Of a stretch of DNA of 32,295 bases, positions 7,006 to 31,995 are shown in pieces. Positions within the stretch are counted from its first letter, which is position 1. Each line of letters starts with the position of its first letter. The stretch is from a virus, in the IMG/VR virus record IMGVR_UViG_3300042361_000244, positions 1 through 32,295 of that record; one strand, written 5' to 3'. The notes beneath the pieces are model-generated. The model did no database searches and had not been told where the DNA came from. It saw only the letters and a program-made list of their open reading frames with translations. A program made the translations under genes and the position numbers.

Positions 7006-7358
7006 TATTTGCGTTTTCCTTGTAATTCAACCATTTTATCTAAAGCAAATATTAATTTACTTAATTTACCTATACCAGTATTAATTTCTTTAGCAACTGT
7101 TGCTATATCTTCGTTAGATGAATACATAAAAGGTTGAAATGATTCTCTCATTATTATAAGTCTTCTACGAATTTCCTTAAACTCTGGTAAGTATTCTACT
7201 TCAGATGATACTGTTCCTGTTTCAGGATTTACAGTTGATTTTGATATTTTGTATCCTTTTTTCATGAAGTCTTTGTTAGGAGCTTCAGGAGGAGCTACAT
7301 ATTCAGGATTATAAACGTTTTCTGGTTTATCTAATTCTAATAAGTCTAATAATTTCAT
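7005..7358 (-). CDS. Conserved-looking neck-region protein of unknown function (117 aa)
   Basis: I do not recognise this family. The N-terminus MKLLDLLELDKPE is a short amphipathic stretch with an LLE motif. A Pro-rich patch follows, then a charged C-terminal half (EFKEIRRRLIIMRESF to the end) that is probably helical. It sits 10 bases after the preceding gene and overlaps the gp15-like gene by one base, so it belongs to the neck/tail-completion operon. A role in neck assembly or as an adaptor is only a guess from position. Confidence 0.7.
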   Translation of the reverse strand: MKLLDLLELDKPENVYNPEYVAPPEAPNKDFMKKGYKISKSTVNPETGTVSSEVEYLPEFKEIRRRLIIMRESFQPFMYSSNEDIATVAKEINTGIGKLSKLIFALDKMVELQGKRK

Positions 7359-7368: not shown

Positions 7369-7710
7369 TTAATATGATCCTGTTTCAGTAATTGTATTAT
7401 ATCTAGGAATAAATTGTAGTAACCCTGGTATTTTATTCTTAGTTACTGCACTTATTCCAATTGCTTTAATTGTTGATTTAGCATCTCCTCTACCAATATA
7501 CTTTATCTTTACTAAAGAATATTCATGTTGTTCTGTAGCTTTACTATCTAAAAATTCACTATGTTCTACAGTAACAACAACTACACCTTCTAAAGCTCTA
7601 ATCTCATTATAAATTTCTACTTTATTTTGCTCAGATTGAGTTTTAATCAATACATCACATCTAAAAACTTTGATGGATTCGTTTAATAGTATTTCACTTA
7701 ATAATCCCAT
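7369..7710 (-). CDS. Small alpha/beta protein in the neck operon (113 aa)
   Basis: Not recognised by name. The N-terminus MGLLSEILLNE resembles the short (I/L)xE-ending leaders of other proteins in this window. The rest looks like a compact alternating beta-alpha-beta fold (FRCDVLIKTQ, helix, GVVVVTVEHSEF, LVKIKYIG, helix), similar to a ferredoxin-like plan. It overlaps the gp14-like gene by one base and lies between it and the gp15-like gene. Function unknown; the context suggests a virion or assembly role. Confidence 0.7.
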   Translation of the reverse strand: MGLLSEILLNESIKVFRCDVLIKTQSEQNKVEIYNEIRALEGVVVVTVEHSEFLDSKATEQHEYSLVKIKYIGRGDAKSTIKAIGISAVTKNKIPGLLQFIPRYNTITETGSY

Positions 7711-12428: not shown

Positions 12429-13778
12429 TTAAAATTTTGTTATACCAGCTAACATCTTCCATCTAGCAACAGTATCGTCAACTTGTACGATTTGTTTTTG
12501 TGGAGCTACACCAGCTGCTTTTGAAGCAAATCCTAATGATTCTTTGATTGTAGTTTTCTTAGCTACTGCTAATGCACTATTCATTGATTCGTAAAGATTT
12601 TTAGCTTCTTTTGTAGTAGTTGCTTTATCAAATTGAGCAATTACTCTTAGTTTTTGTGATTCAGTTAAGTTTTTATCTTTGAAGATTCTGTTAACGTAAA
12701 GCAACTTAGCATTTAGTAAGTTAGTTTCGTTTAATTCATTACGAAGAGCTTTAATTGTTTTAATAGCTTCGTACATTTCATTATCGTCTTCTTCAGAGAT
12801 ATTAGATGATAATTTAGAATATCCTTTACCAGCAGCTACTGCTTTTTTCATTGCAGCTGGAGAGTATTCGTCTTGGTATGCTTTCTTAACGTTTCCTATA
12901 CCTTTTTTAACGGCGGTGCCTATTTTCTTAACAGTATCACCTATTCCTTCTTCCATATCTTCTTCTTCTTCAAGATTAGACGGTAATTTGGAATATCCTT
13001 TACCAGCAGCTACTGCTTTTTTCATTGCTTCTGGCGAAATTTCATCGTTGTAAAATTTCTTTAATTTAGCTAATTTCTCAGCGCTAAGTGAACCGATTTT
13101 CTTAACGAAATCAGATACACCTTCTTTCATGTCATCAGCATCGTTGTCTTCATTTTCATTTAATGAATCTAATTCAGCTAATAACTCATCTAAATTGAAT
13201 TCTTCATCTTCAGCTCCGATTTCTTCTTCACCACCCATACCGTCTACGTCTAATGACATATCATCTCCACCCATTTCAGCTTCTTCGTCTTCTGAAGTTT
13301 CATACTCTTCAGTTTCTAATTCACTTGAAACGATGTCTTTAATCATGTCTTTTAATTCGTCAACAGTTAAGTCAGTGATTTTTTCATCTTCTTCAGATTC
13401 ATCATCTTTTTTAGATGCTTTTTTGTCATCTTTCTTGTCGTCTTTTTTATCGTCTTTTTTAGCTTCATTCATATCGTCACCGAAATCTAAATCTGCTAAA
13501 ATCTCAGATAAATCAAAATCTTCTTCTAAACCATCATCTTCCATGTCAGAATAAGCCTGTGCTTGTGCGGCGTCATCTGATTCTATATCTTCTAGATCAG
13601 AATAATCGTCGTCATCATCTTCTGGGTCTTCCATTTCTTGAAGTTTTGCTGATAACATAGATTGAAGTTTTGGTGCAAGTGCTTCTTCCAAAGCTACTTT
13701 TGCGTTTGCTAACGCTGCTTCGCGAACTGCTTTGGCGTCGGCGATAGCCTCTTTGAATAAGTCTTTGTTTGTACTCAT
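12429..13778 (-). CDS. 22: Prohead core scaffold protein, T4 gp22-like, acidic (449 aa)
   Basis: This is the internal scaffold around which the prohead assembles, later degraded by the protease. The first part is helical and Ala-rich. A very acidic middle follows, with D/E runs and a KKDD repeat near 105-125. Two copies of a 13-residue motif MKKAVAAGKGYSK lie near 250 and 310, each next to an acidic run and an IG(D/N)-VKK segment. The C-terminal third (LNETNLLNAKLLYVNRIFKD, then LTESQKLRVIAQFDKATTTKEAK) is helical and looks like a conserved scaffold domain. The protein ends VARWKMLAGITKF, a motif shared with other proteins here. It lies between protease and capsid genes as in T4, but is much longer than the 269-residue T4 gp22. 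It has the clearest Shine-Dalgarno in the window. Confidence 0.85.
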   Translation of the reverse strand: MSTNKDLFKEAIADAKAVREAALANAKVALEEALAPKLQSMLSAKLQEMEDPEDDDDDYSDLEDIESDDAAQAQAYSDMEDDGLEEDFDLSEILADLDFGDDMNEAKKDDKKDDKKDDKKASKKDDESEEDEKITDLTVDELKDMIKDIVSSELETEEYETSEDEEAEMGGDDMSLDVDGMGGEEEIGAEDEEFNLDELLAELDSLNENEDNDADDMKEGVSDFVKKIGSLSAEKLAKLKKFYNDEISPEAMKKAVAAGKGYSKLPSNLEEEEDMEEGIGDTVKKIGTAVKKGIGNVKKAYQDEYSPAAMKKAVAAGKGYSKLSSNISEEDDNEMYEAIKTIKALRNELNETNLLNAKLLYVNRIFKDKNLTESQKLRVIAQFDKATTTKEAKNLYESMNSALAVAKKTTIKESLGFASKAAGVAPQKQIVQVDDTVARWKMLAGITKF

Positions 13779-13930: not shown

Positions 13931-14548
13931 TTAACACAATGGACAAACGCCAGTTGCATTACATATAATTTCAGTTATTAAACTATTTATTCTACTATAA
14001 TCCTTAGATGGTTTATATTGTTTACCTTCAGCTAATGACATATACGCCTGTGGTGTACTAGGTACTGATACCAAATCCCAACATAATAATTCAAAATCAT
14101 CTTGTACTTCAACTGTTTCACCTAGTTGTTTAACACTACCCATACCACGTGATGATATACCAAGTGGAATATTAGATAATATTAATGCTTTAGCAATGTT
14201 GCCTGAAGGTGTTGGTAATAACTGTAATTTACCCATTAAATCGTTTCCTTCCCACCATACTTCTGTAATAACGTGAGATGTATTTGATAGGTTAACAACA
14301 GATGCTTCAGGGTGATCTAATTCACCTAGAGCAGTACGTGTTTTTACTGGTCCTTCCATATATTTTTGAACTTCTCTTTCAAGAATTTCACGAGGGTATA
14401 CACGACCATTACCATTCTTTTGTTCAGCTTCTTGTAGTTTACCTACAAGAGTAACAAGAGATTTACCCTCGTTTAACTGTTTGTTTTCAACAATAGTTAA
14501 ATTAGCTAATTGAGGGAGTGTATAATCTATTAATAATGTCTTATTCAT
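13931..14548 (-). CDS. 21: Prohead core protease, T4 gp21-like (205 aa)
   Basis: This serine protease sits in the prohead core and cleaves scaffold, capsid and internal proteins after (I/L)xE-type sites. The herpesvirus-assemblin-like fold is indicated by GELDHP with the catalytic His79, GISSRGMGS with the serine at 132 or 133, and FELLCWDLVSVPSTPQAYM carrying a conserved Asp (158). The length is close to T4 gp21 (212). The C-terminus ends with three cysteines in ten residues (ICNATGVCPLC), which is unusual for a cytoplasmic protease. The stop of the upstream 565-residue gene lies one base before this start region, so the two are probably cotranslated. A terminator follows the gene. Confidence 0.93.
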   Translation of the reverse strand: MNKTLLIDYTLPQLANLTIVENKQLNEGKSLVTLVGKLQEAEQKNGNGRVYPREILEREVQKYMEGPVKTRTALGELDHPEASVVNLSNTSHVITEVWWEGNDLMGKLQLLPTPSGNIAKALILSNIPLGISSRGMGSVKQLGETVEVQDDFELLCWDLVSVPSTPQAYMSLAEGKQYKPSKDYSRINSLITEIICNATGVCPLC

Positions 14549-14549
14549 A

Positions 14550-16247
14550 TTATTTCTTCATTTCACTTAATACTTCGCGTACAAGTGATTCTAATTGTGA
14601 TTTGAATTTATCAAATGAACCACCTAAATCAACGTTAGATCTAAATTTACTTTTTTCACCTAACCCTAATACTTGTTTAACAGCATGTTGAACGGTTTTA
14701 TCATTATATTTTGATGAATATACAGTTGTATATACTTCTTCTTCTTCGTTGTACTCTATTTTAGCATCTGGTATTATTGCTCTTAGTCTATCATCTTCAT
14801 CATTTTTAAAATAACCATAAAAAGTATATTGACCTTCTTTCACACTTATTTTCTTACTTTTTTCACCTGTTGGGTCCATTTTTTTAACACCACGAGATGA
14901 TTTAGCTACTAATGACATTAACTGTACACCAGATACACCTTTATTTGTTTCTTTATGAGCTTTGTTTGCAGACGCTTTTATCTTTTCAACACCCTTAACA
15001 GGTTTCATTTGGTTAGCTTTATCTACAAGCTCAGTTTCGTCTTTTTTCTTAGCAATAGCTTTTTTCTCTTTAGTAGGTAATGCTTTAGTATCTACACCAG
15101 ATAATTTAAGCTGAGTATAGTAGAATGGGTTTTCAGCTAAATGATCCAAAGCAATTTTTTCTGCTTTTTTAGGATCGTCTGTATGTTCCATTTCAACTTG
15201 CATACCCATTCTTAATTCTTGTGGGTGTATTTGGTTTGGATGTAAGCTTTTACCTTTTTTAGATTCATATAACTCTTCATCATGGTATTGTCCTGCTATT
15301 TCTCTAGCAATATCCATATCTACACCTTCATCCCATAATCTATTTACAGCATCTTCAAATGAAGTTGCATTCATTGCTATGTCTTGTGCTGTTTCGTTAT
15401 CAATACCTTCCTCTAATGGATCCCACTGTGATAATATATCTTCCTCCCCTTGCTTTTCAGTATCGTATTTGTTGATAAGATCATCTAATTCATCATCTTC
15501 TAAATCTTGTTTCTTTCTTTTAATAGCCATTGCTCTAGCATCAGCTTCTTTTTCAGGATCACCTGCTATACCATATATATCTGATTCTTTTAACCAATAA
15601 CCTATACCTTTCCAGTTACCAGCATTAAATACATCTTCTTCTTCTTCACCATCATGAATTACTTTTAAGATAATTTTGTTCCATTTGTATTTTCTAATAA
15701 GATCTCCAACTATTTCTAATGTATCGTTGTAATCAAAATTTGATTTTATAGTATCTATTTCATAATCTGTAGATCCATCAGGGCCCCAATGATAATGTTT
15801 ATCTTCAATTTTGGTAATTTCATTATCATAGTCAAGGGTAATAATCATATCTGATTTTCCCGTATATGCTCCTTCAGTCATTCCCATAAATGGAATTTCT
15901 GGGTCATTTGGTAAAGTATTAAAAGGTGTTACACGAACTGGTTGTAAAAATTTATTAGCTGCTTGTTCTGGTGTCATTCCCTCATACTCACCTAAATCAA
16001 TATTATCAGGGATAATAGATTCAGCTCCTCTATCTTTTAAAATATTAATGAATCTTTCAATCCACATAGTGTTAGCTTCATGAGATTCAGCTAATATACC
16101 CTTATTTTTAAGGATTCTAACTGAATCATTGAATGATGTTACATTTGTAACGTATTGAGGCATAGTCATGCGTAAATTTCTCATGAAATTTGCTTGTGAC
16201 ATTCTACCTTCTTTTAAATCACGATATTGATTTTGTATACTTTTCAT
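14550..16247 (-). CDS. Large head-module protein with a DUF5661-like segment (565 aa)
   Basis: The function is unknown. The segment HPNQIHPQELRMGMQVEMEH followed by DDPKKAEKIALDHL (about residues 335-375) matches my memory of the DUF5661 pattern common in phage proteins. The N-terminal part has a short repeat-like idea, (S/T)SF(N/E)D(S/A)V-x-x-L, near residue 38 and again near 292. Lys-rich and acidic linkers separate the blocks. The C-terminus ends LESLVREVLSEMKK, an amphipathic helix with an LSE site like the terminal tags of other proteins here. It directly precedes the protease gene and lies within the portal-to-protease interval, where T4 has core proteins gp67 and gp68. A core or packaged protein is plausible but unproven. 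Confidence 0.75.
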   Translation of the reverse strand: MKSIQNQYRDLKEGRMSQANFMRNLRMTMPQYVTNVTSFNDSVRILKNKGILAESHEANTMWIERFINILKDRGAESIIPDNIDLGEYEGMTPEQAANKFLQPVRVTPFNTLPNDPEIPFMGMTEGAYTGKSDMIITLDYDNEITKIEDKHYHWGPDGSTDYEIDTIKSNFDYNDTLEIVGDLIRKYKWNKIILKVIHDGEEEEDVFNAGNWKGIGYWLKESDIYGIAGDPEKEADARAMAIKRKKQDLEDDELDDLINKYDTEKQGEEDILSQWDPLEEGIDNETAQDIAMNATSFEDAVNRLWDEGVDMDIAREIAGQYHDEELYESKKGKSLHPNQIHPQELRMGMQVEMEHTDDPKKAEKIALDHLAENPFYYTQLKLSGVDTKALPTKEKKAIAKKKDETELVDKANQMKPVKGVEKIKASANKAHKETNKGVSGVQLMSLVAKSSRGVKKMDPTGEKSKKISVKEGQYTFYGYFKNDEDDRLRAIIPDAKIEYNEEEEVYTTVYSSKYNDKTVQHAVKQVLGLGEKSKFRSNVDLGGSFDKFKSQLESLVREVLSEMKK

Positions 16248-16259: not shown

Positions 16260-16388
16260 TTATCTACCTTGTCCTCTATAAGCCTTTGGACGTGGATTGT
16301 GTTTATTATATGATTTCTTAGCTGCGCCTTGTTTACGTTTACCAAAGTTAACCTTATTATTGGAAGCGGATGATTTTGCTTTTGCCAT
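16260..16388 (-). CDS. Small basic protein in the head module (42 aa)
   Basis: A short frame encodes MAKAKSSASNNKVNFGKRKQ, then a tail rich in Lys, Arg, Gly, Asn and Tyr ending RPKAYRGQGR. Its ATG overlaps the stop of the 481-residue gene by one base (TAATG), as at several gene borders here, and it fills the gap before the 565-residue gene with only 12 bases spare. The strongly positive, disordered composition would suit nucleic-acid or acidic-scaffold contact. No family is recognised. Confidence 0.7.
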   Translation of the reverse strand: MAKAKSSASNNKVNFGKRKQGAAKKSYNKHNPRPKAYRGQGR

Positions 16389-17833
16389 TATTGGTTAAGA
16401 TTTTTAATTTTATTGTTAAGTTGGTTTACCATTTCTGATATATTTGCTACATTTTTCTGTGTTGCTTTCCAATATCTAATACCTTCTTCACCTTCACTCA
16501 ATTCTTGTTTCATACGAGAAGTGTATTCTACTATACGATCAATTTCAGTTAATTTACGTTTTACTTCACGAATAGCTTTATGTAGTTGTTCAGATTTAGT
16601 TCTGAATTTAACATCTTTTTTAAATTTACCGTATGATACTTCATTAAGTAATTCTTCTTTAATGATATCACTCAGTGATTCGTATAACTTAGTGTTAATA
16701 CCACCGTGTACTCTTACTCTATCATATACATCAGCATCTTTATCACTTTTCTTTTTTTGCTTTACAGCAAATGGATTTTTTACATACCATATATCATCAC
16801 TAACAGCAGGCATTAATTTTTCAACATTGATTGCGTTGCTGCTCGCTAACTTATTTGCTATTCTGGAAGCTAATTGTATTGAATTACCAGTATCTAATGA
16901 AAATTGTCTAGGCGTATTTTCTTTATCTTTATTTTTATATAACCAAATTAAGAATTCTAGTTCATTTTCTAAACCTGCTGCTTTACTAGGCTCAGCTTTA
17001 ATAGCTTTTAAAAACTGTATTCCTTTAGGAGCAATACTTACAATATCGTTAGAAACAGAAGAACTAACTGGATCTGGTGTTCTAGATAAAATTAAATCTA
17101 AAGCAATAAAACCATTGCTGGTTATTTTAGCACCTTGAGCTGCTTTTTTAATTTCTCCTCTAGTACCAGCTGGCATTTTTTCTTTTAAATATCTAGTTAA
17201 AGCAGGTAGTAATATTTCTTTATCAAAAGAACTTCTACCCCTTTCAATAGCGTCTAATGCAGTTTTAACTAAAGGATCAATCATTAATATTGTTTCCCCT
17301 TTACTATTGGTAAATATTTTAAAATATATTTTAGATGTTTCCCCTAATTTAATAGGTTCAAGTAAAAATGAAGGAAATTCATATTCAAGTGGAATTCGAA
17401 AAGATTTAGATCCTGCTTTTTTCTTGTTAGGATCATAGAATGAAAATTCTGCTTCGTTCATATCAGTATTGTTTTGGTAATAATTATCACCCTTAATACC
17501 ACCTCCTGTATAACCGCTAGCTGCTGTATAGCCACTAGCTGCTCCATAAGATGATGCTTGATCATAATTACTTTCTTTGTATATATTGTATTTTTTCTTT
17601 TTAGCTGAGGGCCATATAGATTTATAATCTCTCACTTTGGAATCTCCAGGCATTTGTGTTTCGCCTTTTGTTACTTTCCAACCTTCATCTTCAGCTGCAG
17701 CCACTGCTGCATTTTTCTTTTGGCCTTTCTTAGCAAAGGCAAATGGAGTAGAATAACCACCAACACCAGATGTAGATGATTCTTCATCTAACAGTTCTTG
17801 TACTAGTTTTTTGATGTATTCTTTAAATTCCAT
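16388..17833 (-). CDS. Head-module protein with terminal and internal LxE sites (481 aa)
   Basis: No named family recognised. The N-terminus MEFKEYIKKLVQELLDE is an amphipathic helix ending in LDE, then GVGGYSTPFAFAKKG and a Gly/Tyr/Ala repeat (SSYGAASGYTAASGYTGGG near 105). A folded middle region spans about 130-370. Near residue 390 a second helix-like stretch SLSDIIKEELLNE occurs, followed by a Lys/Arg-rich helical domain of about 80 residues to the end. The pattern looks like two mature chains separated by a protease site, if gp21 cuts after LNE. The gene overlaps its upstream neighbour by one base and lies in the portal-to-protease interval, pointing to a prohead core or internal protein. 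Confidence 0.75.
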   Translation of the reverse strand: MEFKEYIKKLVQELLDEESSTSGVGGYSTPFAFAKKGQKKNAAVAAAEDEGWKVTKGETQMPGDSKVRDYKSIWPSAKKKKYNIYKESNYDQASSYGAASGYTAASGYTGGGIKGDNYYQNNTDMNEAEFSFYDPNKKKAGSKSFRIPLEYEFPSFLLEPIKLGETSKIYFKIFTNSKGETILMIDPLVKTALDAIERGRSSFDKEILLPALTRYLKEKMPAGTRGEIKKAAQGAKITSNGFIALDLILSRTPDPVSSSVSNDIVSIAPKGIQFLKAIKAEPSKAAGLENELEFLIWLYKNKDKENTPRQFSLDTGNSIQLASRIANKLASSNAINVEKLMPAVSDDIWYVKNPFAVKQKKKSDKDADVYDRVRVHGGINTKLYESLSDIIKEELLNEVSYGKFKKDVKFRTKSEQLHKAIREVKRKLTEIDRIVEYTSRMKQELSEGEEGIRYWKATQKNVANISEMVNQLNNKIKNLNQ

Positions 17834-22219: not shown

Positions 22220-22233
22220 ATATTGTTTATATA

Positions 22234-22241
22234 TAAATATA
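22234..22241 (-). promoter_or_regulatory. Candidate promoter box TATATTTA before the terminase gene
   Basis: The box begins right after the T-tract of the upstream terminator and is 14 bases before the chosen terminase ATG. This is the same terminator-then-box arrangement as before phoH. Confidence 0.4.
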
Positions 22242-22242
22242 T

Positions 22243-22271
22243 AAAAAAGGTCCAACCTTGTGGGTTGGACC
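22243..22271 (-). terminator. Rho-independent terminator between the membrane protein and terminase genes
   Basis: On the minus strand GGTCCAACC, loop CACAA, GGTTGGACC make a perfect 9-bp stem followed by six T. It closes the accessory unit upstream of the head module. Confidence 0.93.
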
Positions 22272-22992: not shown

Positions 22993-23985
22993 TTATTTTA
23001 TAATTCCTGCACGGTATTTTAATTGTTCCATAAACCATTCATCAATTGGCTCTTCTGGTTTTTCTTTAGCCTGATTTGCTTTGGCTTGACGTTTTTGCAA
23101 ATATTCTGATCCTGCTATTAGATCATTTATTCTTTGCTCTAATGAGGCTTTTAAATCTATCAAACGTTGTAATTCAGATGATGGTTTATCTTTGAAATCA
23201 CCAGCTACATTTTTTGATCTTCTTGCTTTAAATATATCACTTTTTACTTTATTTAAACGTGCTTCTAAATCAGATACTTTCATGAAGTTTTGATAATCTT
23301 CATCAGGTATTCCAAGATCAGATGTTTTGCTTACTATTGGTTCTTCTTCACCGGATTGTTTCATTTTAGCAAACATTGCGTCTACTTCTTCATCACTCAT
23401 ATCACCTACGATAAAGTCAAATTCATCGCTTGTTTCTTCTTCTTCATCATCCTCTTCATCATCAGCTACATCGCTCGGTACATCTCCGAAACCACCAATA
23501 TCTCTTTTCTTTATAGTTACGGGTTTAATAGGAGTAAAATCATCAGCGGCTGCTCGTGGTGCTTTTTGTTCCTCAGCAGCTACAATTACACCTCTAGCTA
23601 CCAATTCCATAAAATCTGAGTTTACTGGCTGTTGTTTGTTATATCCTAACTCATATGCTAAGTCTATTTTAGAAATAGGCTCATCAATCTCTTTCATTTT
23701 ACTTACGATACGATTTTTCTTACCAGTAAATTTTCCGGGATCAACATCAGGAGCTAATTCATAACGTAATGCTACGTTAGCTAATTCATCTAATTTATCT
23801 TCAGATACTACTGATGTTCTACCTGATGATAGGTCTGATTTTTTAGCGTTTAATGCCGTTATTTGTTTATTAATAGAATTTAATTCTGCATCTTTAGCTG
23901 CTTTCTCTTGGGGAGTTATTTCAGCTTCGTTCACTACTTCATTTATAGCTTTACGTATAATTTGTCTTAATTCAGATTTTTTCAT
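22993..23985 (-). CDS. Tagged putative internal protein (330 aa)
   Basis: The chosen start is the ATG at 23985, giving MKKSELRQIIRKAINE; a longer frame to 24039 would add 18 residues, overlap the kinase gene and hide the shared leader. The leader ends in INE, a good prohead-protease-type site. Behind it are a coiled-coil-like stretch, a possible small helical domain (LANVALRYELAPDVDPGKFT, about 60-130), an acidic linker with DEEDDEEEE, and a charged helical C-terminal third. The last residues EWFMEQLKYRAGIIK resemble the RWKMLAGITKF end of the scaffold, so both ends of this protein carry shared motifs. The leader has an AATATTTA box 22 bases upstream. No enzymatic motif is visible. Confidence 0.78.
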   Translation of the reverse strand: MKKSELRQIIRKAINEVVNEAEITPQEKAAKDAELNSINKQITALNAKKSDLSSGRTSVVSEDKLDELANVALRYELAPDVDPGKFTGKKNRIVSKMKEIDEPISKIDLAYELGYNKQQPVNSDFMELVARGVIVAAEEQKAPRAAADDFTPIKPVTIKKRDIGGFGDVPSDVADDEEDDEEEETSDEFDFIVGDMSDEEVDAMFAKMKQSGEEEPIVSKTSDLGIPDEDYQNFMKVSDLEARLNKVKSDIFKARRSKNVAGDFKDKPSSELQRLIDLKASLEQRINDLIAGSEYLQKRQAKANQAKEKPEEPIDEWFMEQLKYRAGIIK

Positions 23986-25001: not shown

Positions 25002-26309
25002 TTATTTAATTAATTTTTCTGCAATGTATATTCCGTGTGCTCCTGATACTGTTATTCCTCTAGCTGATAAAGCATCACCAGCAAAATACACATTTGGATA
25101 ATCAGTTAATGATAAATCAGTATAGTTAACTAGTGGTTCAGGTGATAAATACTTTACTTCCGGTAAATATATTCCCCAATCATCTCCAAAGTTAAATACT
25201 TTATTCATATCGTCTATAAAATCTTCAATATAATAGAAATATGATCCCATAGCTTCAATTAATGGTACTAAAGTATCTATTGGATAAGATGTCACTGGAG
25301 TACCTTCTGATGTTAGTCCTGAAATACGAGTACGATTAGGTGAATAGTATAATCCTTTTCCATTGACTTGTAATTTAGAAACAACTTTTCTACTCCATTC
25401 AAATGGATTTTCAATACCTTTAATTTCCATTAAGATGCCAAAATTAGTCATATCGTTTCTAAATTCCTCACCTTTCTTAGCATGACCATTATATGTAATA
25501 TCACCATATGTTTCCTCTACTGCTACATAAGCAGCATTGTTGTTAGTACAGAATGAACGTATAGATACATTTTCAAATTTTTGATATAATTTGAAATCAT
25601 AAGACACATCAATCAATTTTTGGAAATAATGTTGTGGTGCTTCAAAACGAGCTCCTATTTGTACTGATTTGGGTTCAGTTGGTAATTTATATTGGTCTGC
25701 TAATTGTTTACCGAAGTCTATTCCTGATTTACCTACTGCAAATATCAATTCATCATAATTCATCCACCCTCCGATTTCAGAACTAGGATCATCTAACAAA
25801 TATACATTGCTTTGTTCAAATTCAATCTTAGTTACTTCAGTATTCCATTTAAACTTAACACCTTTATCTAACAAATATTGATACCATGTTTTAGCAATCT
25901 CATGTAAGAAATTAGAACCAATGTGCCATACAGGAAACATACGTAATCCAAAATATGGTTTAATAAATTCAGGTTCCTCTTGTGGATTAGATAAGAATAT
26001 TTCATCTGGTTTAGGGTGAAAACGAGTAAAGTTATCTACTACTTGTTTCATCAATTCCATAGCTTTTTCTTCACCACAATATTTTGACAATTGTCCACCA
26101 ATTGATGTGTGGTATGTTAATTTACCATCACTCCATCCACCAGCGCCTAGCATACCAGTCATTACTTCTTCAGGTAAACGACTGTGTGGGTCATTACCTT
26201 TGTCTATGATAGTAATCAGTTCACCAGGATAGCCATTGTCTACTAGCTTAGTAGCAGCATTAATTCCTGCTACTCCAGCTCCAATAATCACAATTTTTTT
26301 ACTTTGCAT
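25002..26309 (-). CDS. FAD-dependent dehydrogenase, COG2509-like (435 aa)
   Basis: A Rossmann dinucleotide-binding start (KIVIIGAGVAGINAA, GxGxxG at 10-15) is followed by an acidic ribose-binding position around IIDKG. Residues 52-63 read GMLGAGGWSDGK, which matches the G-(G/A)-AG-x-(F/W)-SDGKL signature I associate with COG2509 dehydrogenases. The C-terminus NVYFAGDALSARGITVSGAHG (near 409-429) is the second FAD-contacting motif. The length is near that of the family. The protein has no signal peptide and is probably soluble. Its 5' end overlaps denV by 11 bases, so the two are likely coexpressed. The reaction is unknown; an oxidoreductase of this kind is an uncommon phage cargo and may be an auxiliary metabolic gene taken from a bacterium. 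Confidence 0.9.
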   Translation of the reverse strand: MQSKKIVIIGAGVAGINAATKLVDNGYPGELITIIDKGNDPHSRLPEEVMTGMLGAGGWSDGKLTYHTSIGGQLSKYCGEEKAMELMKQVVDNFTRFHPKPDEIFLSNPQEEPEFIKPYFGLRMFPVWHIGSNFLHEIAKTWYQYLLDKGVKFKWNTEVTKIEFEQSNVYLLDDPSSEIGGWMNYDELIFAVGKSGIDFGKQLADQYKLPTEPKSVQIGARFEAPQHYFQKLIDVSYDFKLYQKFENVSIRSFCTNNNAAYVAVEETYGDITYNGHAKKGEEFRNDMTNFGILMEIKGIENPFEWSRKVVSKLQVNGKGLYYSPNRTRISGLTSEGTPVTSYPIDTLVPLIEAMGSYFYYIEDFIDDMNKVFNFGDDWGIYLPEVKYLSPEPLVNYTDLSLTDYPNVYFAGDALSARGITVSGAHGIYIAEKLIK

Positions 26310-26661
26310 TTAGTCTTTCGTTTATACGTTGTCTGATAATTTGTTCATCTTCTATAGTTGGTGTGTAATCACCCATTAGATGTTGTGGTACTGTTTCCCA
26401 AGCATTGCCGTAGTAAGCTACATTGAATTCTCTCGCTTTACATTCAGCATATACTTCTTCGTATCTATTTTTTAGATAGCCTAATTTATCATAGAAAAAG
26501 GCAACATGGCCTTTACCTAATGTAAATCTAGGTGGTACACTTTTCATATTATATCTACCTCTAGACACAACATTGGGTATACGTTTCATTTCACGGTGTT
26601 CAGCTAACAGATGTTTATTTGTTAGTTCTTTTGGTGGGATCGCAACATTTATTCTAGTCAT
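26299..26661 (-). CDS. denV: Pyrimidine-dimer DNA glycosylase, T4 endonuclease V (DenV) type (120 aa)
   Basis: The enzyme removes UV-induced cyclobutane pyrimidine dimers by base flipping, glycosylase and AP-lyase action, starting excision repair. The N-terminus MTRINVAIPPKELTNKHLLA carries Thr2, whose alpha-amino group is the nucleophile after Met removal. H17, then EHREMKRIP with R23 and E24, match T4 H16, R22 and the catalytic E23 with a one-residue shift. FTLGKGHVAFFYDKLGYLKNR is the diagnostic core, also in T4. The C-terminus is shorter than in T4 (120 against 138) and lacks the Trp-Tyr-Lys-Tyr-Tyr end that contacts DNA. It begins after a strong terminator, with a TATATTTA box 18 bases upstream, so it heads its own unit. 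Confidence 0.93.
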   Translation of the reverse strand: MTRINVAIPPKELTNKHLLAEHREMKRIPNVVSRGRYNMKSVPPRFTLGKGHVAFFYDKLGYLKNRYEEVYAECKAREFNVAYYGNAWETVPQHLMGDYTPTIEDEQIIRQRINERLNAK

Positions 26662-26679
26662 ATAATTAAATTAAACGTC

Positions 26680-26687
26680 TAAATATA
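26680..26687 (-). promoter_or_regulatory. Candidate promoter box TATATTTA before denV
   Basis: CGTATATTTAGACG on the minus strand lies 18 bases before the denV ATG and follows the terminator of the preceding unit by about 20 bases. Confidence 0.35.
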
Positions 26688-26705
26688 CGAACTTTATTCT
26701 GACCT

Positions 26706-26741
26706 AAAAAATAAAAGCGCACCTTTATAGAGTGCGCTTTA
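26706..26741 (-). terminator. Rho-independent terminator after the 149-residue tagged gene
   Basis: On the minus strand AAAGCGCAC, a 9-base loop, and GTGCGCTTT form a perfect 9-bp stem followed by TATTTTTT. Confidence 0.9.
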
Positions 26742-26761
26742 ATGTATTGTAATAGATTTAA

Positions 26762-27211
26762 TTACACTTCATCATCCATTTCGAAATCAGCTAAGATATC
26801 ATCAACACTCTTTGTAGCTTTATTAGTTCCACCCATAGAGCTTCCAGCTGTGTACCCAGCTCTACTAGCAAATCCAAGTTCTTCTACTGTGTTAAAGAAT
26901 TTATTAACATCCGGTTGTTTTTTACCTAATAAATTAGCATAGTCTATCTTTTGTACTCTTTTACCATCTTTTTTAGCATTGTATAAGAATTTTAAAATTT
27001 CAAGATGATTAATTCCGATACCCATAGGTAAGGAACCACCAGCTTTTAAACTTCTTAATAATGATTCACCTTCAGGAGTGATAGTGTAGGCACCACCCGT
27101 ACCTGCTGTACGAGCCATTTCGTCCATTTCTTCAGCTTCGTTGAACTGAGATTCGTTAATCATACCAGCTAATAGCTGTAATCTTCTTGTTTCGATTATT
27201 TGTTTTTTCAT
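26762..27211 (-). CDS. RLQxLAGM-tagged protein with a possible winged helix (149 aa)
   Basis: The N-terminus MKKQIIETRRLQLLAGMINE carries the R(W/L)xxLAGI-type motif followed by an INE site. An acidic linker and AYTITPEGESLLRSLKAGGS follow. Residues about 65-120 (HLEILKFLYNAKKDGKRVQK, then YANLLGKKQPDVNKFFNTV and EELGFASR) look like a winged-helix DNA-binding fold: a first helix, a recognition-helix region and a short wing. The acidic C-terminus ends ADFEMDDEV. If both readings are right, this is a DNA-binding protein with a terminal sorting peptide. It is 14 bases downstream of a gene with a similar tag, and a strong terminator follows. Confidence 0.75.
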   Translation of the reverse strand: MKKQIIETRRLQLLAGMINESQFNEAEEMDEMARTAGTGGAYTITPEGESLLRSLKAGGSLPMGIGINHLEILKFLYNAKKDGKRVQKIDYANLLGKKQPDVNKFFNTVEELGFASRAGYTAGSSMGGTNKATKSVDDILADFEMDDEV

Positions 27212-27225
27212 TTTGGGTTTTTATT

Positions 27226-27660
27226 TTATTGTACTTTGTAAACGTTGTTTCCTATTTTTAAATTATTAATTGTGCTAACATTAATCATTCTATATCCTGA
27301 ATCACTACCGCTTTTTGCTTTAGGATCCCATACTGGTATTAATCCTTTAGCTTCTGGGTTGTATGGTAGTTCTCCACCTTTAAGATAAGCTTTAACTCCT
27401 AAACGAGCATTCATTACACGTGTTGTACCATCTTTTTTAGTAAATGTTACAGTGAAGAATTTACCTTTAGTATTTTTAATTAATTCCTTAGCTTTATCTT
27501 TTGATATAGTACCAGATGGTTCTTCAGGAGTACTAGCGTCGCTGTCAGGCTTTACTTCATCCGGTATTTCAGAATCAGGCACGGCTTGTTCATCCTCGTC
27601 TGCTTCTTTTAAAATACCAGCTAGTTTTTGCCAACGTTTAGCCTCTTTTATTAAATACAT
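27226..27660 (-). CDS. RWQKLAGI-tagged protein with an SH3-like beta domain (144 aa)
   Basis: The N-terminus MYLIKEAKRWQKLAGILKEA has the same motif as the C-terminus of the scaffold (RWKMLAGITKF). An acidic Pro/Ser/Asp-rich linker spans about 20-55. The C-terminal 80 residues (FFTVTFTKKDGTTRVMNARL, then LIPVWD and GYRMINVSTINNLKIGNNVY) are predicted all-beta and match a phage family usually described as SH3-barrel-like; I am moderately sure of that name and know no function. A TATATTTA box lies 18 bases before the ATG. Confidence 0.78.
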   Translation of the reverse strand: MYLIKEAKRWQKLAGILKEADEDEQAVPDSEIPDEVKPDSDASTPEEPSGTISKDKAKELIKNTKGKFFTVTFTKKDGTTRVMNARLGVKAYLKGGELPYNPEAKGLIPVWDPKAKSGSDSGYRMINVSTINNLKIGNNVYKVQ

Positions 27661-27678
27661 CTAGTATGTGTTTGCGTA

Positions 27679-27686
27679 TAAATATA
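27679..27686 (-). promoter_or_regulatory. Candidate promoter box TATATTTA before the 144-residue tagged gene
   Basis: TTTAATATATTTATACG lies 18 bases before the ATG and next to the stop codon of the exonuclease gene. It shares extended flanks with the box before gp13. Confidence 0.38.
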
Positions 27687-28448
27687 TTAAATGGTGTCAC
27701 TAGCTAACTTAGTTTCATATATTCTACTAGAAACTGTGTGATAGGTATGACAATTTTTACATTGTAATTGAATTCTTGGTGTTCCTGACGCTGTATACCG
27801 TTTTTGTGAAAACTTCATATCTTCCGATGCGCATTTAGGACATGAATATCTCTCACCCCCATTAGCTACACCGTGGTGTGTTTTGGCAGGAATGTAACTT
27901 GACATTTCATTATATACTTGTTCAAGTATCAATACGTCATTTTTACAATATTCCACCATACTATCTAATGCTTCTTGGTCTTTATCTAGCACTACTTTTT
28001 TCCACAGGTCATAACCTGTTTTAATCTTAGCACCAATACCTAAAAATTTAGCAATATAATCTAACTTATTACTGTTAAATTTAAATTTAGAACGGGCGTT
28101 TTTTAACGTGTCTAATGTAGTGTATGTTGGGAATACTGGTATTCTGTGGTACAGGCATCTAGTTCTAACCCAAGGTAAATCAAATCGATCACCATTGTGA
28201 CCTATTAATTCATCTGCTTCATTAGCTACTTTTATAAACTGTTCTAATAATTTCTTATCATCTTGATTTTTATCCCAGCTTAAAGAATACACTTTATCAT
28301 CACCTGCCCATTTATAGCAAATACAAATAATAGCTCTTTCTTTAATAATGTTATCGGGACTAATAGATAATCTGTAACCAGCTGTCCAAAACAAACCAAT
28401 GTTTGGACTTGTTTCAATGTCAAAAAATAACCTTTTAATTTGACTCAT
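27687..28448 (-). CDS. DEDDy 3'-5' exonuclease with a C-terminal zinc ribbon (253 aa)
   Basis: A ribonuclease H-fold exonuclease of the polymerase-B-like type. Exo I is FFDIETS (Asp10, Glu12), Exo II is IGHNGDRFDLPW (Asp90), and Exo III is EYCKNDVLILEQVY with Tyr167 and Asp171, the DEDDy pattern. A short C-terminal zinc ribbon follows with Cys203, Cys206, Cys230 and Cys233 (CPKC and CKNC). There is no polymerase or helicase domain, so it is a stand-alone nuclease for DNA processing or repair. It could degrade ssDNA or host DNA. It begins 43 bases after a 73-residue gene whose end forms a terminator-like hairpin. Confidence 0.9.
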   Translation of the reverse strand: MSQIKRLFFDIETSPNIGLFWTAGYRLSISPDNIIKERAIICICYKWAGDDKVYSLSWDKNQDDKKLLEQFIKVANEADELIGHNGDRFDLPWVRTRCLYHRIPVFPTYTTLDTLKNARSKFKFNSNKLDYIAKFLGIGAKIKTGYDLWKKVVLDKDQEALDSMVEYCKNDVLILEQVYNEMSSYIPAKTHHGVANGGERYSCPKCASEDMKFSQKRYTASGTPRIQLQCKNCHTYHTVSSRIYETKLASDTI

Positions 28449-28476
28449 AGTATTTTGTTAAGTTAGGGATGAAGAT

Positions 28477-28505
28477 ACAAAAGAGATTTGACTAAGCCAA
28501 ATCTC
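28477..28505 (-). terminator. Terminator-like hairpin at the end of the 73-residue gene
   Basis: On the minus strand GAGATTTG, a 7-base loop GCTTAGT, and CAAATCTC form a perfect 8-bp stem followed by TTTTGT. The stem starts in the coding region and the loop holds the stop codon. The stem is AT-rich and the T-tract short, so it may be leaky. Confidence 0.55.
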
Positions 28506-28713
28506 CAAAATCATCATCTCGATCTAAATAGAAGGTATCTTTATCACCTTCTTCATTAGACAAATGTAATTCAATATCGTTACCAAATGAGCGTACATCA
28601 TCTACAGTGACTTTGTCGCCTTCGTTAAATTTACCTATGCTATTAGATACAGTAAATGTATCTCCTATTTTAATATTAATAGCTTTAATCTCGTCTAATA
28701 TACTTCTATTCAT
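28492..28713 (-). CDS. Small acidic beta-rich protein (73 aa)
   Basis: Not recognised. IKIGDTFTVSNSIGKFNEGD followed by KVTVDDVRSFGNDIELHLSN reads as an SH3- or KOW-like small beta barrel, with an acidic tail DRDDDFGDLA. It starts 7 bases after the stop of the 211-residue gene and ends in a hairpin, so it closes that unit. Confidence 0.62.
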   Translation of the reverse strand: MNRSILDEIKAINIKIGDTFTVSNSIGKFNEGDKVTVDDVRSFGNDIELHLSNEEGDKDTFYLDRDDDFGDLA

Positions 28714-28719
28714 TGTTGT

Positions 28720-29355
28720 TTATTTAAAATCCTCCATGTAAAACAATATGTATGTTGAAAATTCAGAACCATATCCTAAAGTAGCATCTTCAGCACTAGG
28801 ATCATCAACAGTAAAATCATCAATGTTTTCTTTTAGAAAATCTTGGTTTATTTTTTCAAATTCTTCTCTATCTTCTTCATCATCAATACCTTCAAAAGCG
28901 TATTCTCTTAATAAAGCGATATATTTTTTACTAAGTATAAATTTAGAATCAATACATTTAGTAACATAACATATATTACCGGGTCCTGAGAAATAGTCCA
29001 TCATTCTAACATTTTCTACATCATCAGCCCAAAATGTTATTTTACGTTGTGGTTTATAATTGTAAAGAGAAGTAGTAATATATGTTTTGTTTCCATACCA
29101 ATCAGATAAATTGGTTTGTTTTATATTATTATTATCAATACAATCTTTAATAAAATCATATGTTTTATCACTAATTGGGGTACCTCTGTATAGATGTCGT
29201 CCTACAGGAGGTTGTAATAGGGGATTAGATGATTTATATTTTTCTATTTTTTTAATAAAATTATATACTCTATTGTAGTCTATATCTGTTGTCCAGTCAT
29301 GTCCTAGTAATGGAGCTAAAGTATTTGTTATAGTTTTAATAGAAATTTTTTCCAT
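28720..29355 (-). CDS. Possible ADP-ribosyltransferase-like protein (211 aa)
   Basis: The segment GRHLYRGTPISDKTYDFI (about 52-69) resembles the first, Arg-containing motif of R-S-E-type ADP-ribosyltransferases (LYRG). ITTSLYNYKPQRKITFWADD, with ENVRMMDYF after it, could be the Ser-Thr-Ser-like second motif, and a late YGSEFSTYILF (about 195-205) could supply the catalytic Glu. The order and spacing are reasonable, but the second and third motifs are weak and the final E-x-E is not clear. If correct, it would act on a host protein as T4 ModA/ModB or Alt do. It lies just downstream of the tagged-protein cassette but has no obvious tag itself. Confidence 0.6.
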   Translation of the reverse strand: MEKISIKTITNTLAPLLGHDWTTDIDYNRVYNFIKKIEKYKSSNPLLQPPVGRHLYRGTPISDKTYDFIKDCIDNNNIKQTNLSDWYGNKTYITTSLYNYKPQRKITFWADDVENVRMMDYFSGPGNICYVTKCIDSKFILSKKYIALLREYAFEGIDDEEDREEFEKINQDFLKENIDDFTVDDPSAEDATLGYGSEFSTYILFYMEDFK

Positions 29356-29365: not shown

Positions 29366-29929
29366 TTAAGCTTCAGCAGGTGGTGTTTCTTCTTCTTCAG
29401 GTGCGGCTGGTGCTTCAGCTCCAGCTGGTGTTTCTGTAGGGGGCGCAGCAGGTGCTCCACCTGGTATTTCAGCTGGTGGGGCTCCTGTAACAGCATTAAA
29501 TGCTTCAGCTCCAGCATCAGGTGTATTAGTTTCAATCTCTGATGTTTTTTCATCAATTGAATAATTTAATTCTAATAAATCTGATATACCCTGTGATGCT
29601 CTTTCTAGTTCGCCTAAATTTTGAATATTATATCTTTTACCTGCTACTTTAGCGGTATATGTACCTTTTCCATTATATATAATAGTGAAATCTTCATTAT
29701 TAATTAATTTAACAGAAAATGTAGTTGGTTTAGGGGCAACTATTTCAATATCAGAAATGAATCGACCAAATGCCGGAGACATTAGGTCGATCATTACTTC
29801 TTTTAATTTAGGAAAACGATATACTAAATACATTGCTTGTGTAGCACGTTTTTCTTTTTCTTCTTGTTCTTGAAGAGCCTTACGTACTGCTACTTTAATG
29901 TATTTTTCTAATAATAGTTTTTTATTCAT
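29366..29929 (-). CDS. Tagged putative internal protein with a Pro/Ala/Glu-rich tail (187 aa)
   Basis: The first residues, LLLEKYIKVAVRKALQE from position 5, form an amphipathic helix ending in LQE, like others in this cassette. A compact beta-rich domain follows (about 60-130), with PTTFSVKLINNEDFTIIYNG and KVAGKRYNIQNLGELERASQ. The last 50 residues are low-complexity, rich in Pro, Ala and Glu, probably disordered. It begins two bases after the stop of the 377-residue gene. The domain resembles one I remember in other marine T4-like phages, of unknown function. Confidence 0.76.
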   Translation of the reverse strand: MNKKLLLEKYIKVAVRKALQEQEEKEKRATQAMYLVYRFPKLKEVMIDLMSPAFGRFISDIEIVAPKPTTFSVKLINNEDFTIIYNGKGTYTAKVAGKRYNIQNLGELERASQGISDLLELNYSIDEKTSEIETNTPDAGAEAFNAVTGAPPAEIPGGAPAAPPTETPAGAEAPAAPEEEETPPAEA

Positions 29930-29931
29930 TG

Positions 29932-31065
29932 TTATTTTTTAGCTTGACCTTTCCACATAGCAGCAGCTGCTATTTTTTTTCCTTTTTCACCACCACCCGC
30001 AGCAGCAGCTACTTTTTCAAATCCTTTACCTTTTTTACCTATATCTTTACCAGCACGAGCTTTTGTAGCTACAGCTGACTTTTCCTTTTTAGTCATACCA
30101 GCAGATGGCTTTTTCTTCTTAGCTTTAGCTTCTCTTATGAAGTCACTCCAGCTTAAACCTCTAGAAGATAAAGATCCACTATTCCAATCTTGTTCATCGT
30201 AGTAAGTAGTAATCCAATCTGCTATATCGCTTTCAAGTTTTGCATCATTATTTTCATAGTCAGTGTATTTAAATTCACCTAATATAGCATCAATTATATC
30301 TTTAGCTTCTCTAGGAGTTACATCACTCTCACCAACATTAAGATTATCATTTACATACTTTTCAACTTTATCTTCAAAGTCATATTGACATTCTTCACAT
30401 CCAAGATTTTCTCTCATTTGTGGTTTTAATGTTTTAACAGATATAATCTTATTTCCATCTGGGAATTTTACATATATCTTTGCTCCTTCTTTAGCTTGAG
30501 TTACAGGAGATACTGGATCTACTTTAGTTATGGTTCCAGTGCCATATTTTTTATGGTGAAATTTTTGATCTACTCTATAATCTGTTTTAGGAGTGTAATC
30601 GTATTCTTCTCCGTAATCTTTAGATTTAGCGCTGTGTTGTCTTCCTTTATCTCCTCTTACTTCTTCTAATTCTTCTTTAGGTTTTTTATCTTTTTTAGTA
30701 GGTTTAACAGGAGCCTTTTCAATTAAACCAACCATTTCTTTAATCTTTTCAGTTTCAGAAGCAACTTTACCTTCAACTTCAGAAATTTGGTTATCTAACA
30801 TTTCAGATAATTTGGCGTGTGCTACTTTAATTTTTTCTAACTCATTAACAAACTTTTGCATATGAGCATATTCAGCTACAAATGATGATGGGTTTTCTCC
30901 ATTTTCGTTAATAGCATATTGGCCTAAAGATTCTTTCATTTTTCTTAAGCCATTTAATTCTTTTTTAAGGTGTACTAATTTACCACCACTTTTAGGTAAA
31001 CCACCTTCTTTTTTAACTTCTAGTATTACTTGGCGAATAACTTCGCGTACTTCTGATAAATTCAT
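29932..31065 (-). CDS. Tagged protein with a UvrD-Tudor-like segment and a basic tail (377 aa)
   Basis: The leader MNLSEVREVIRQVILE ends in ILE. A coiled-coil region spans about 30-115, then an acidic/Lys linker. VDQKFHHKKYGTGTITKVDP with AKIYVKFPDGNKIISVKTLK (about 165-215) closely follows the pattern of the C-terminal Tudor-like domain of UvrD/PcrA helicases (G-x-x-V-x-H-x-x-F-G-x-G-x-V ... V-x-F ... K-x-L), which binds RNA polymerase in that family. A helical region comes next. The last 60 residues (MTKKEKSAVATKARAGKDIG to AAAAMWKGQAKK) are strongly basic and match a tail found on other phage proteins. No helicase domain is present. Its 5' end lies 11 bases after the 60-residue gene. Confidence 0.76.
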   Translation of the reverse strand: MNLSEVREVIRQVILEVKKEGGLPKSGGKLVHLKKELNGLRKMKESLGQYAINENGENPSSFVAEYAHMQKFVNELEKIKVAHAKLSEMLDNQISEVEGKVASETEKIKEMVGLIEKAPVKPTKKDKKPKEELEEVRGDKGRQHSAKSKDYGEEYDYTPKTDYRVDQKFHHKKYGTGTITKVDPVSPVTQAKEGAKIYVKFPDGNKIISVKTLKPQMRENLGCEECQYDFEDKVEKYVNDNLNVGESDVTPREAKDIIDAILGEFKYTDYENNDAKLESDIADWITTYYDEQDWNSGSLSSRGLSWSDFIREAKAKKKKPSAGMTKKEKSAVATKARAGKDIGKKGKGFEKVAAAAGGGEKGKKIAAAAMWKGQAKK

Positions 31066-31076
31066 TTTTATTATGT

Positions 31077-31259
31077 TTATTTGTATTTATTTGGTTTACC
31101 GATAGTTGCATCTTTATATCCATTAGTGTATCCTTGTTGGTATATTTCTTCAAATTTCTTCCAATTATCTGTTGGTAGATCTAATTCGTTTAATTTCTTT
31201 TCGTTTATTGCTTCTTTTACAAGCTTACGAAGAACTTCTTTTAATTTGTTATTTGCCAT
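31077..31259 (-). CDS. Tagged small protein (60 aa)
   Basis: I chose the ATG at 31259, giving MANNKLKEVLRKLVKEAINE; the longer frame to 31361 overlaps the upstream gene by 80 bases and hides the leader. The leader ends in INE. The remaining 40 residues include DNWKKFEEIYQQGYTNGYKD, a short helical, Tyr-rich segment. If the protease cuts after INE, a mature peptide of about 40 residues would remain. Confidence 0.7.
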   Translation of the reverse strand: MANNKLKEVLRKLVKEAINEKKLNELDLPTDNWKKFEEIYQQGYTNGYKDATIGKPNKYK

Positions 31260-31281
31260 TTTATATTTTTTATTTATTAGT

Positions 31282-31719
31282 TTACCATTTTTTACAAGAC
31301 CAATAATTAGCTTTCCATCTTGGTCCTGGGTTATCACAATTATGTCTTTTACGATATGCACTGCGGCGTTTTGGGTTGTTTACTTTGATGTTCATTCTTT
31401 TACCCTTAGCTGATTTTCCACCAAAACCAAAGTTAACTTTTACAACCTTACCCTTATTATTCTTAACATATACCTTAAACTTTTTAACATCACCTTGCAT
31501 TGGTTTACCTAGTGTAACTTTACGGCCGTGATACTCAGCTTCAAGTAAACAAGGGCAATCAGCTTCCGCTAATACTTGTTTATAATCACGCATAAATTGA
31601 ATGAATTCCTTAAGATCTTGTTCATTTTCAACATCATATTCATCAACTTCATCTTCATTAGTATAAAGTGTTTCTATAATAGCTTTTTTAACTAACTGTC
31701 TTAATTCTGTTATTTTCAT
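31282..31719 (-). CDS. Tagged protein with a conserved basic Cys/Trp C-terminal domain (145 aa)
   Basis: The leader MKITELRQLVKKAIIE ends in IIE, followed by an acidic stretch. From about residue 65, RKVTLGKPMQGDVKKFKVYV and VNFGFGGKS lead into PKRRSAYRKRHNCDNPGPRW and a final YWSCKKW. This Cys-Trp C-terminal block closely resembles a domain I recall at the ends of many marine phage proteins, of unknown function. Paired cysteines (HNC and WSC) suggest a metal site or disulfide. It begins three bases after the stop of the 90-residue gene. Confidence 0.8.
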   Translation of the reverse strand: MKITELRQLVKKAIIETLYTNEDEVDEYDVENEQDLKEFIQFMRDYKQVLAEADCPCLLEAEYHGRKVTLGKPMQGDVKKFKVYVKNNKGKVVKVNFGFGGKSAKGKRMNIKVNNPKRRSAYRKRHNCDNPGPRWKANYWSCKKW

Positions 31720-31722
31720 AAT

Positions 31723-31995
31723 TTATTTGTTAAACTTTACTTTTGCTTTATCAGTATTAGGTACAAATTGTTTACCTTTTTTAGATCCAGCTACTTTTTT
31801 ACGAGATGTTGCAGCGCGTTCTGCTTTAGTTAAGCTATTTGCTTTAGCACGAGGTAAACAACGAGTTGTTGCTTTACCTTTTTTCATTGTACCACATGGA
31901 CCAGCAATATTACCTTGTGTATCTATACGAACCCAATCTTCTTTTTTAAACCAATCACGAAGTGATTCATTTAATATGTCTAATAGTTTAATCAT
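31723..31995 (-). CDS. Tagged small basic protein with Cys pair (90 aa)
   Basis: The leader MIKLLDILNE ends in LNE. DWFKKEDWVRIDTQGNIAGP followed by CGTMKKGKATTRCLPRAKA has the appearance of a conserved phage family (W-x-x-E-D-W, GPCG, CLPRAK); I think it is related to DUF5872 but am not sure. The last half is Lys-rich, probably disordered and nucleic-acid-binding. Its start overlaps the upstream partial gene by 8 bases. Confidence 0.76.
   Translation of the reverse strand: MIKLLDILNESLRDWFKKEDWVRIDTQGNIAGPCGTMKKGKATTRCLPRAKANSLTKAERAATSRKKVAGSKKGKQFVPNTDKAKVKFNK

Follow-up and report, generated by a model that had tools for sequence, protein, structure and literature searches.

Five consecutive minus-strand genes at 29366-31995 of a 32,295-base stretch of viral DNA (IMG/VR record IMGVR_UViG_3300042361_000244, hereafter the window) encode proteins of 90, 145, 60, 377 and 187 residues that begin with short leaders. 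Comparison with related phages leads us to regard these leaders, with good confidence, as modular and interchangeable head-cargo tags, that is, capsid-targeting propeptides of three classes (T1, T2 and T3) linked to the gp21-type prohead protease. All five genes, and two further leaders that an earlier note on this DNA had placed on the genes starting at 23985 and 17833, are present as it described them. Its proposal, a modular tag for prohead loading that gp21 cuts, also explains the comparative evidence best: unrelated cargos, leaderless homologues, a glutamate at the leader-cargo junction, exchange of tags, agreement with phage T4 at positions 4, 7, 8 and 10, gp21 in 14/15 T1-bearing contigs and a tagged protein in virions of phage S-SM1.

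The window is a fragment of a T4-type myovirus in which terminase, portal, gp21, a putative scaffold and a gp23-type capsid protein can be recognised. Its closest cultured relatives are Flavobacterium phage immuto (61% for the capsid protein, 51% for gp21), Microcystis phage Mel-JY01 and Rhodothermus phage RM378, and we compared it with 20 related IMG/VR contigs (G-numbered). The gp21 homologue that the earlier note had seen is borne out by its family matches (Table 1), and gp21 was found in the window and in 20/20 relatives.

Three classes of N-terminal leader

Each leader occupies the N-terminal 10 to ~20 residues of its protein and is followed by an independent domain. T1 has the form MKKSELRQIIREAI..LxE, T2 the form ..RWQKLAGILxE and T3 the form MIKLxDILxE. 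Aligned on the glutamate, the three share a decapeptide, xxx-hydrophobic(4)-xx-hydrophobic(7,8)-x-E(10), to which T1 keeps least strictly; its positions are read directly in T3 and counted back from the glutamate in T2 and most T1 leaders. The earlier note had assigned the cassette to a single leader type, which holds for the four longer leaders (T1), while MIKLLDILNE belongs to a separate class, T3. Class T2, two further T3-like genes and the T1 and T2 copies that close two head-cluster proteins (Table 1) are additional to what that note contained.

We built a position-specific scoring matrix (PSSM) from six window leaders and scanned 2950 proteins from 24 sequences (the 20 relative contigs, the window, immuto, and parts of Mel-JY01 and RM378). 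With the score set at 16, N-terminal matches occurred in 18 families against 6 internal matches, an enrichment per position of 25-fold (12.7-fold at a score of 14 and 26.6-fold at 18). When leaders were instead anchored on a core that takes no account of the glutamate, [ILVM]xE stood at +4/+8/+12 of 36/37/28% of cores within the first 15 residues (n=108), as against 12/2/4% of internal cores (n=222). Because of this N-terminal enrichment, and because [ILVM]xE follows a core defined independently of it, the leaders are not chance amphipathic helices; by both the PSSM and the anchored core their alignment surpasses that of random helices from these genomes, one of the tests on which the earlier note had staked its proposal. 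An unsupervised expectation-maximisation motif search gave a blurred motif, its mixing weight having run to the limit, and the seeded PSSM and anchored counts were used in its place.

Counts by class in gp21-bearing relatives, set against shuffled N-termini, were 88 vs 10 for T1, 32 vs 0.1 for T2 and 73 vs 1.9 for T3, and neither T2 nor T3 was found among 222 genes of the crAss-like phages (Bacteroidota) crAss001 and phi14:2. T3 leaders anchored without the glutamate carried E at position 10 in 66/84 cases, with hydrophobic residues at 4, 7 and 8.

The same cargo occurs with different tags or with none

Two cargo domains of the cassette, the YWSC domain of the 145-residue protein and the GPCGT domain of the 90-residue protein, allow tagged and bare forms to be compared (an arrow marks a junction or predicted cut). 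The YWSC domain is bare in Pelagibacter phage Aegir (MAKYQGRTV..) and Roseobacter phage CRP-902 (MATYKGKSV..), neither of which has a gp21 match, and its bare homologues in phages without gp21 begin MA(K/T)Y.G; it carries an extension in C48C1 (MKKFKQYIDE..LTE↓AEYQG) and HTVC008M, both of which have gp21. C75C1 and short contigs (MGELKKWLKQDWVRI) have the GPCGT domain without an extension, and its leaderless homologues begin MG(E/K)LxxW..WVRI. The records with bare cargo and no detectable gp21 are Aegir, CRP-902, C75C1 and S-EIVl, and the cargo homologues of gp21-less phages begin exactly where the extension of the tagged forms ends.

At that boundary the tagged forms are largely uniform. Among non-redundant IMG/VR sequences the residue before the YWSC domain is E in 65/68 junctions (D in 3) and the residue at -3 is L/V/I/M in 66/68; in extended GPCGT homologues E directly precedes SLRDWF in 54/55, with I/V/L/M at -3 in 53/55. 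Taken together, the two domains have E at the junction in 119/123 cases. In the bare forms this residue is M or G, and so the cargo domain itself does not demand a glutamate. Two YWSC contigs in which no gp21 was found (L276 and L278, on G036 and G037) have the junction LFD↓AEY, with D replacing E. A simple rule of no gp21, no junction E did not come out clean, as ten YWSC-junction contigs without detected gp21 retain E or D; these ten also lack gp23 and Peptidase_S78 matches, and therefore may be fragments or use another protease.

Tags are also exchanged. GPCGT cargo is found behind T1 (MDKEKLRELIRE↓SLRDWF) or T3 (MIKLLDILNE↓SLRDWF), YWSC cargo carries either T1 or T3, and the phrog_2267 cargo has T2 in the window and T1 in G007, G009, G010 and G011. 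Between the window's phrog_2267 gene (27226-27660) and its homologues in G009, G010 and G011, a P/E-rich linker before the SH3-like domain is retained while the tag class changes.

In several homologues, small domains follow one another in a single chain, separated by leader-like or xxE segments. One (L336) reads as a tag, a SAY domain and then ..EEQIRDVIKE↓SLRDWF, and the repeats of another (L204) match DUF5872 at the cut-off. We infer that such strings are polyproteins that would be cut apart in the prohead. A single open reading frame (ORF) from the T1 scan described below (L604) holds T1 twice, as MKKSELKQIIREEV..cargo of ~35 residues..NNMKKSELRQIIKEEV, and is either tag-cargo-tag or has a second, internal start.

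Tag-only scans, gp21 and the range of cargo

We scanned IMG/VR with degenerate DNA patterns for T3 and T1, using reordered codons as controls. The T3 pattern was found in at least 120 stretches, whereas its reordered form gave 6 matches, none starting an ORF of at least 50 residues; among the matches listed, 133/151 of the T3 matches begin such an ORF. The T1 pattern was likewise found in at least 120 stretches, against 0 for its reordered form and 1 for a third, neutral pattern. A much larger cellular collection held the T3 pattern in 40 stretches, with 19 matches resembling N-terminal ORFs.

After removal of the tag, single linkage sorted the matches listed into 60 (T3) and 68 (T1) cargo families. 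Cargo that could be named comprises NUDIX proteins, a zeta-toxin-type kinase, a kinase-like protein (weak) and a 5'-3' deoxyribonucleotidase. Recurrent T3-tagged proteins with a YHFT..IL motif (L401, L403, L429, L485, L492, L472 and G003 72758-73201) resemble the start of ART/DarT-type proteins, and those of relatives that were tested had no Pfam match. Four other T3-tagged proteins (L441, L454, L467, L489) have leucine-rich-repeat-like C-terminal parts, with weak LRR and DUF5649 matches in L489.

Contigs found through the tag alone tend to encode the protease: again among the matches listed, gp21 was present in 14/15 T1 contigs of at least 60 kb and in 6/7 T3 contigs of at least 100 kb. A tblastn search with the window's gp21 found it in ~5% of all phage records (2,511/50,697), all lengths included.

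Copies of the tags at the C-termini of head-cluster proteins

T2 matches over all proteins were 32 N-terminal, 27 C-terminal and 1 internal. The C-terminal ones include the putative scaffold, whose terminal forms are RWKMLAGITKF and RMQKLANIIK, and T1 closes the 565-residue protein encoded beside the protease (..LESLVREVLSEMKK) in the window, G003, G005, G012 and G015. From their presence at these C-termini, T1 and T2 would seem to be imitations of the segments through which core proteins dock.

The gp23-type capsid protein has a likely maturation site at QLMTE59↓SSVTGG, and its [ILVM]xE is retained in close relatives. Two relatives have tandem pairs of gp23-type capsid genes with near-identical N-termini (G004 60985-62652 and 62727-64433; G018 25541-27238 and 27292-28896). 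In Syn9 gp190 (L369) and S-SM1 SSM1_197 (L375), small proteins annotated 'major head protein', another domain is fused after a capsid segment that corresponds to the stretch following the maturation site (TTGYTGGDAATGPTAGYDPV in Syn9); such fusions are possibly an alternative way to borrow the head address.

Relation to T4 and other known systems

In the propeptide of T4 IPIII, positions 4 and 7 serve targeting and positions 8 and 10 processing, and D at position 10 stops processing while leaving targeting unaffected (PMC9026906). The decapeptide fits all the leaders we took from the T4 record (IPII and IPIII, MKTYQEFIAE; Alt, MELITELFDE; gp24, MAKINELLRE), and the leaders described here, with hydrophobic residues at 4, 7 and 8 and E10, match the T4 targeting and processing positions. 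By this likeness they would be functionally equivalent to the T4 propeptides.

The T4 capsid-targeting sequence (IPI, IPII, IPIII and Alt, cut by gp21) resembles the present leaders in that it is a short propeptide at the N-terminus, ends in [IL]xE and depends on positions 4, 7, 8 and 10, in having unrelated cargo that includes small basic proteins, and in its phage-encoded gp21-type protease. The system here differs in its three tag classes, in positions 4 and 7 that are mostly aliphatic and not aromatic, in its scale (~10 tagged genes in this 32-kb fragment and dozens of cargo families over the relatives), in its polyprotein-like cargo with internal sites, in the copies of the tag at head-cluster C-termini, and in being known from sequence alone. 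Many head proteins of SPN3US and phiKZ, including head ejection proteins, are also cut at xxE by a gp21-like protease, and two paralogues have identical N-termini (PMC5694885), but their propeptides are mostly >100 residues, the motif is S/A-x-E and there is no shared modular decapeptide. For phage P1 DarB, an N-terminal segment of <=30 residues is enough for a reporter to be taken into the head, while the Dar proteins had no shared consensus in that study (PMC9024508). DUF5872 (PF19197) and related small Cys/Lys-rich phage domains, which the L204 repeats match, describe cargo only and say nothing of a tag or of head packaging.

In their study of T4-like cyanophages, Sullivan et al. found T4-GC190 among the proteins of purified S-SM1 virions (PMC3037559). 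This putative cytidylyltransferase is SSM1_190, which begins MKKFSAFLNE↓AERSF and is the only T3-type gene in S-SM1; its Syn9 counterpart is likewise the only one in Syn9. For this related group, the S-SM1 data support the presence of a tagged enzyme in the head or virion, but not its cleavage.

Tagged genes and head genes of the window

The features are collected in Table 1. PHROGs, Pfam and NCBIfam gave almost no name for the window's tagged proteins. The YWSC domain has an AlphaFold2 (AF2) model with a pLDDT of 85.5, no match in the PDB by sequence or by fold (best E 1.0), and only unnamed viral relatives. The 90-, 145-, 377- and 60-residue products are basic (pI 9-11) and the 187-residue product is acidic (4.8); most cassette cargos look like small basic internal proteins and not like enzymes. 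The 60-residue protein starts at an internal ATG within a 94-residue ORF that opens with GTG. Homologues of the 377-residue protein keep the leader in G001, G002, G012 and G016, and the leader of the 187-residue protein is kept in ~10 relatives. The acidic protein at 22993-23985 was found in 16 relatives and ends in ..KYRAGIIK, similar to the scaffold C-terminus; it is probably a core component linked to the head cluster, and some tagged proteins in general are probably core or structural proteins and need not be effectors.

Adjoining the cassette is an untagged protein of 211 residues (28720-29355) with a LYRGTP..YITTSLY motif that recalls ADP-ribosyltransferases. We do not claim it as one, as it had no family match and its single-sequence model has a pLDDT of 33.

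Table 1. Leaders, tag copies, cargo domains and head genes of the window
Feature	Position	Strand	Remarks
T3 leader MIKLLDILNE of the 90-residue protein (31723-31995)	31966..31995	-	Predicted cut E10↓S11
Cargo of the 90-residue protein: basic GPCGT/RCLP domain	31726..31965	-	pI ~11; phrog_23735
T1 leader MKITELRQLVKKAIIE of the 145-residue protein (31282-31719)	31672..31719	-	
Cargo of the 145-residue protein: basic YWSC domain	31285..31539	-	phrog_7595; follows the second predicted cut (LLE60↓AEY)
T1 leader MANNKLKEVLRKLVKEAINE of the 60-residue protein (31077-31259)	31200..31259	-	
T1 leader MNLSEVREVIRQVILE of the 377-residue protein (29932-31065)	31018..31065	-	
T1-like leader MNKKLLLEKYIKVAVRKALQE of the 187-residue protein (29366-29929)	29867..29929	-	
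T2 leader MYLIKEAKRWQKLAGILKE on 27226-27660	27604..27660	-	phrog_2267; weak WYL_2/SH3
T2 leader MKKQIIETRRLQLLAGMINE on 26762-27211	27152..27211	-	
T1 leader MKKSELRQIIRKAINE of the acidic protein 22993-23985	23938..23985	-	
Terminase	20630-22255		
Portal	18718-20598		
T1 leader MEFKEYIKKLVQELLDE of 16388-17833	17783..17833	-	Adjoins portal and protease genes
T1 motif LESLVREVLSE at the C-terminus of the 565-residue protein 14550-16247	14562..14594	-	Adjoins protease gene
gp21-type prohead protease (Peptidase_S77)	13931-14548	-	PF03420 E 7.6e-33; phrog_207
Putative scaffold	12429-13778		Assigned by position and conserved neighbours
T2 motif VARWKMLAGITKF at the C-terminus of the putative scaffold	12432..12470	-	Final E absent
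gp23-type major capsid protein	10789-12393	-	
T3-like leader MGLLSEILLNE on 7369-7710	7678..7710	-	Homologues begin MIKLQDILLE
T3-like leader MKLLDLLE on 7005-7358	7335..7358	-	Homologues begin MIKLSDLLKE

Discussion

Several points weigh against reading the leaders as cleavable head-cargo tags. Packaging and cleavage in this clade are predictions from sequence comparison, and the gp21 counts in tag-bearing contigs (14/15 and 6/7) have as their reference the ~5% found among phage records of all lengths. The junction glutamate persists in several contigs of 60-125 kb that have no PF03420 match. The cut in T1 is ambiguous between E16 and E20, and some T1 leaders, such as MKKSQLRQIIKEALDAS of immuto, have no good cut site; moreover, [ILVM]xE specifies only two residues, and one such site taken singly is weak evidence of a cut. 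Basic cargo does not hold as a rule of the class, which is mixed and exceeds the other proteins in basicity only slightly. Some of the tagged genes, such as immuto gp114, have baseplate genes nearby.

Part of this would be explained if the leaders were docking helices for head assembly that mostly stay uncut, the glutamate belonging to the helix or to a domain boundary, and the missing final E of the scaffold's T2 copy, the T1 leaders without a clean site, the junction E in contigs without detected gp21 and the separability of targeting and processing residues in T4 (PMC9026906) all agree with this. Uncut helices do not, however, predict E10 together with an aliphatic residue at 8 in most T2 and T3 leaders, and the same signature once more at cargo boundaries, tens to hundreds of residues further downstream, nor the M or G in place of E in bare homologues, and we consider this explanation improbable. 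That the common N-terminus acts in a different part of the virion or at a different step (tail, baseplate, portal or ejection) and not at the prohead core appears very improbable: although the tagged immuto gene at 81525-81944 adjoins baseplate genes and the window's genes at 7005 and 7369 are among those between the capsid and tail modules, the motifs also stand at the C-termini of proteins encoded beside gp21 and gp23, are associated with gp21 and match T4 head propeptides.

Descent from one old, diverged family, or a common N-terminal domain without a targeting role, would account for those cargo families that do show relationship, such as the clusters of 27 and 40, but it is hard to credit when the cargo falls into so many families, whose named members (NUDIX, zeta-toxin-type kinase, nucleotidase) indicate distinct folds, and when one cargo occurs with different tags or none. 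Chance, finally, has next to nothing left to explain. In a genome rich in AT, lysine-rich amphipathic N-termini are nothing unusual, and the loose T1 pattern does catch false positives, such as the terminase N-terminus (~10/88 by shuffling), but the shuffled, internal, reordered-pattern and crAss-like controls all oppose it, and for T2, T3 and the T1 core it is refuted.

The sequences themselves show the tags and their classes, their N-terminal restriction, their modularity and swapping, the placement of sites at domain boundaries and the association with gp21. If the leaders are head-cargo tags, the hydrophobic face of the tag would dock the protein onto the prohead core, with T1 and T2 mimicking terminal segments of two head-cluster proteins and thereby using the scaffold's own contacts. 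The shell would then close, and gp21 would cut after E10 and at the [ILVM]xE sites on cargo-domain boundaries, as their position and conservation suggest, freeing the cargo in the head. DNA would be packaged around the cargo, which, by analogy with T4, would enter the next host with it. On a broader view, for which we judge the case evenly balanced, this mostly uncultured T4-type branch would have a pan-genomic head-cargo system in which a few scaffold-mimicking tags recruit scores of proteins (small basic domains, zeta-toxin-like kinases, NUDIX hydrolases, nucleotidases and kinase-like proteins), some as gp21-cut strings, to be delivered with the genome.

The underlying principle is already known from the T4 capsid-targeting sequence; in literature mostly outside subscription journals we found no paper on this clade, its tag classes, its cargo strings or tag-based catalogues. 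To learn which proteins a phage delivers with its DNA, one usually has to culture it and carry out proteomics. If the tags are what we propose, the head-packaged proteins of uncultured T4-type phages could be listed from sequence, with two scans already giving ~130 cargo families, and reading tags in metagenomes would yield a catalogue of what these phages inject. Candidates for early-acting anti-defence or host takeover would gain a recognisable address label, and protein delivery by phages beyond T4 and P1 would gain new packaging tags. The suggestion in a review that the capsid-targeting sequence may serve as a general recruiting device (PMC9026906) would then become testable at scale.

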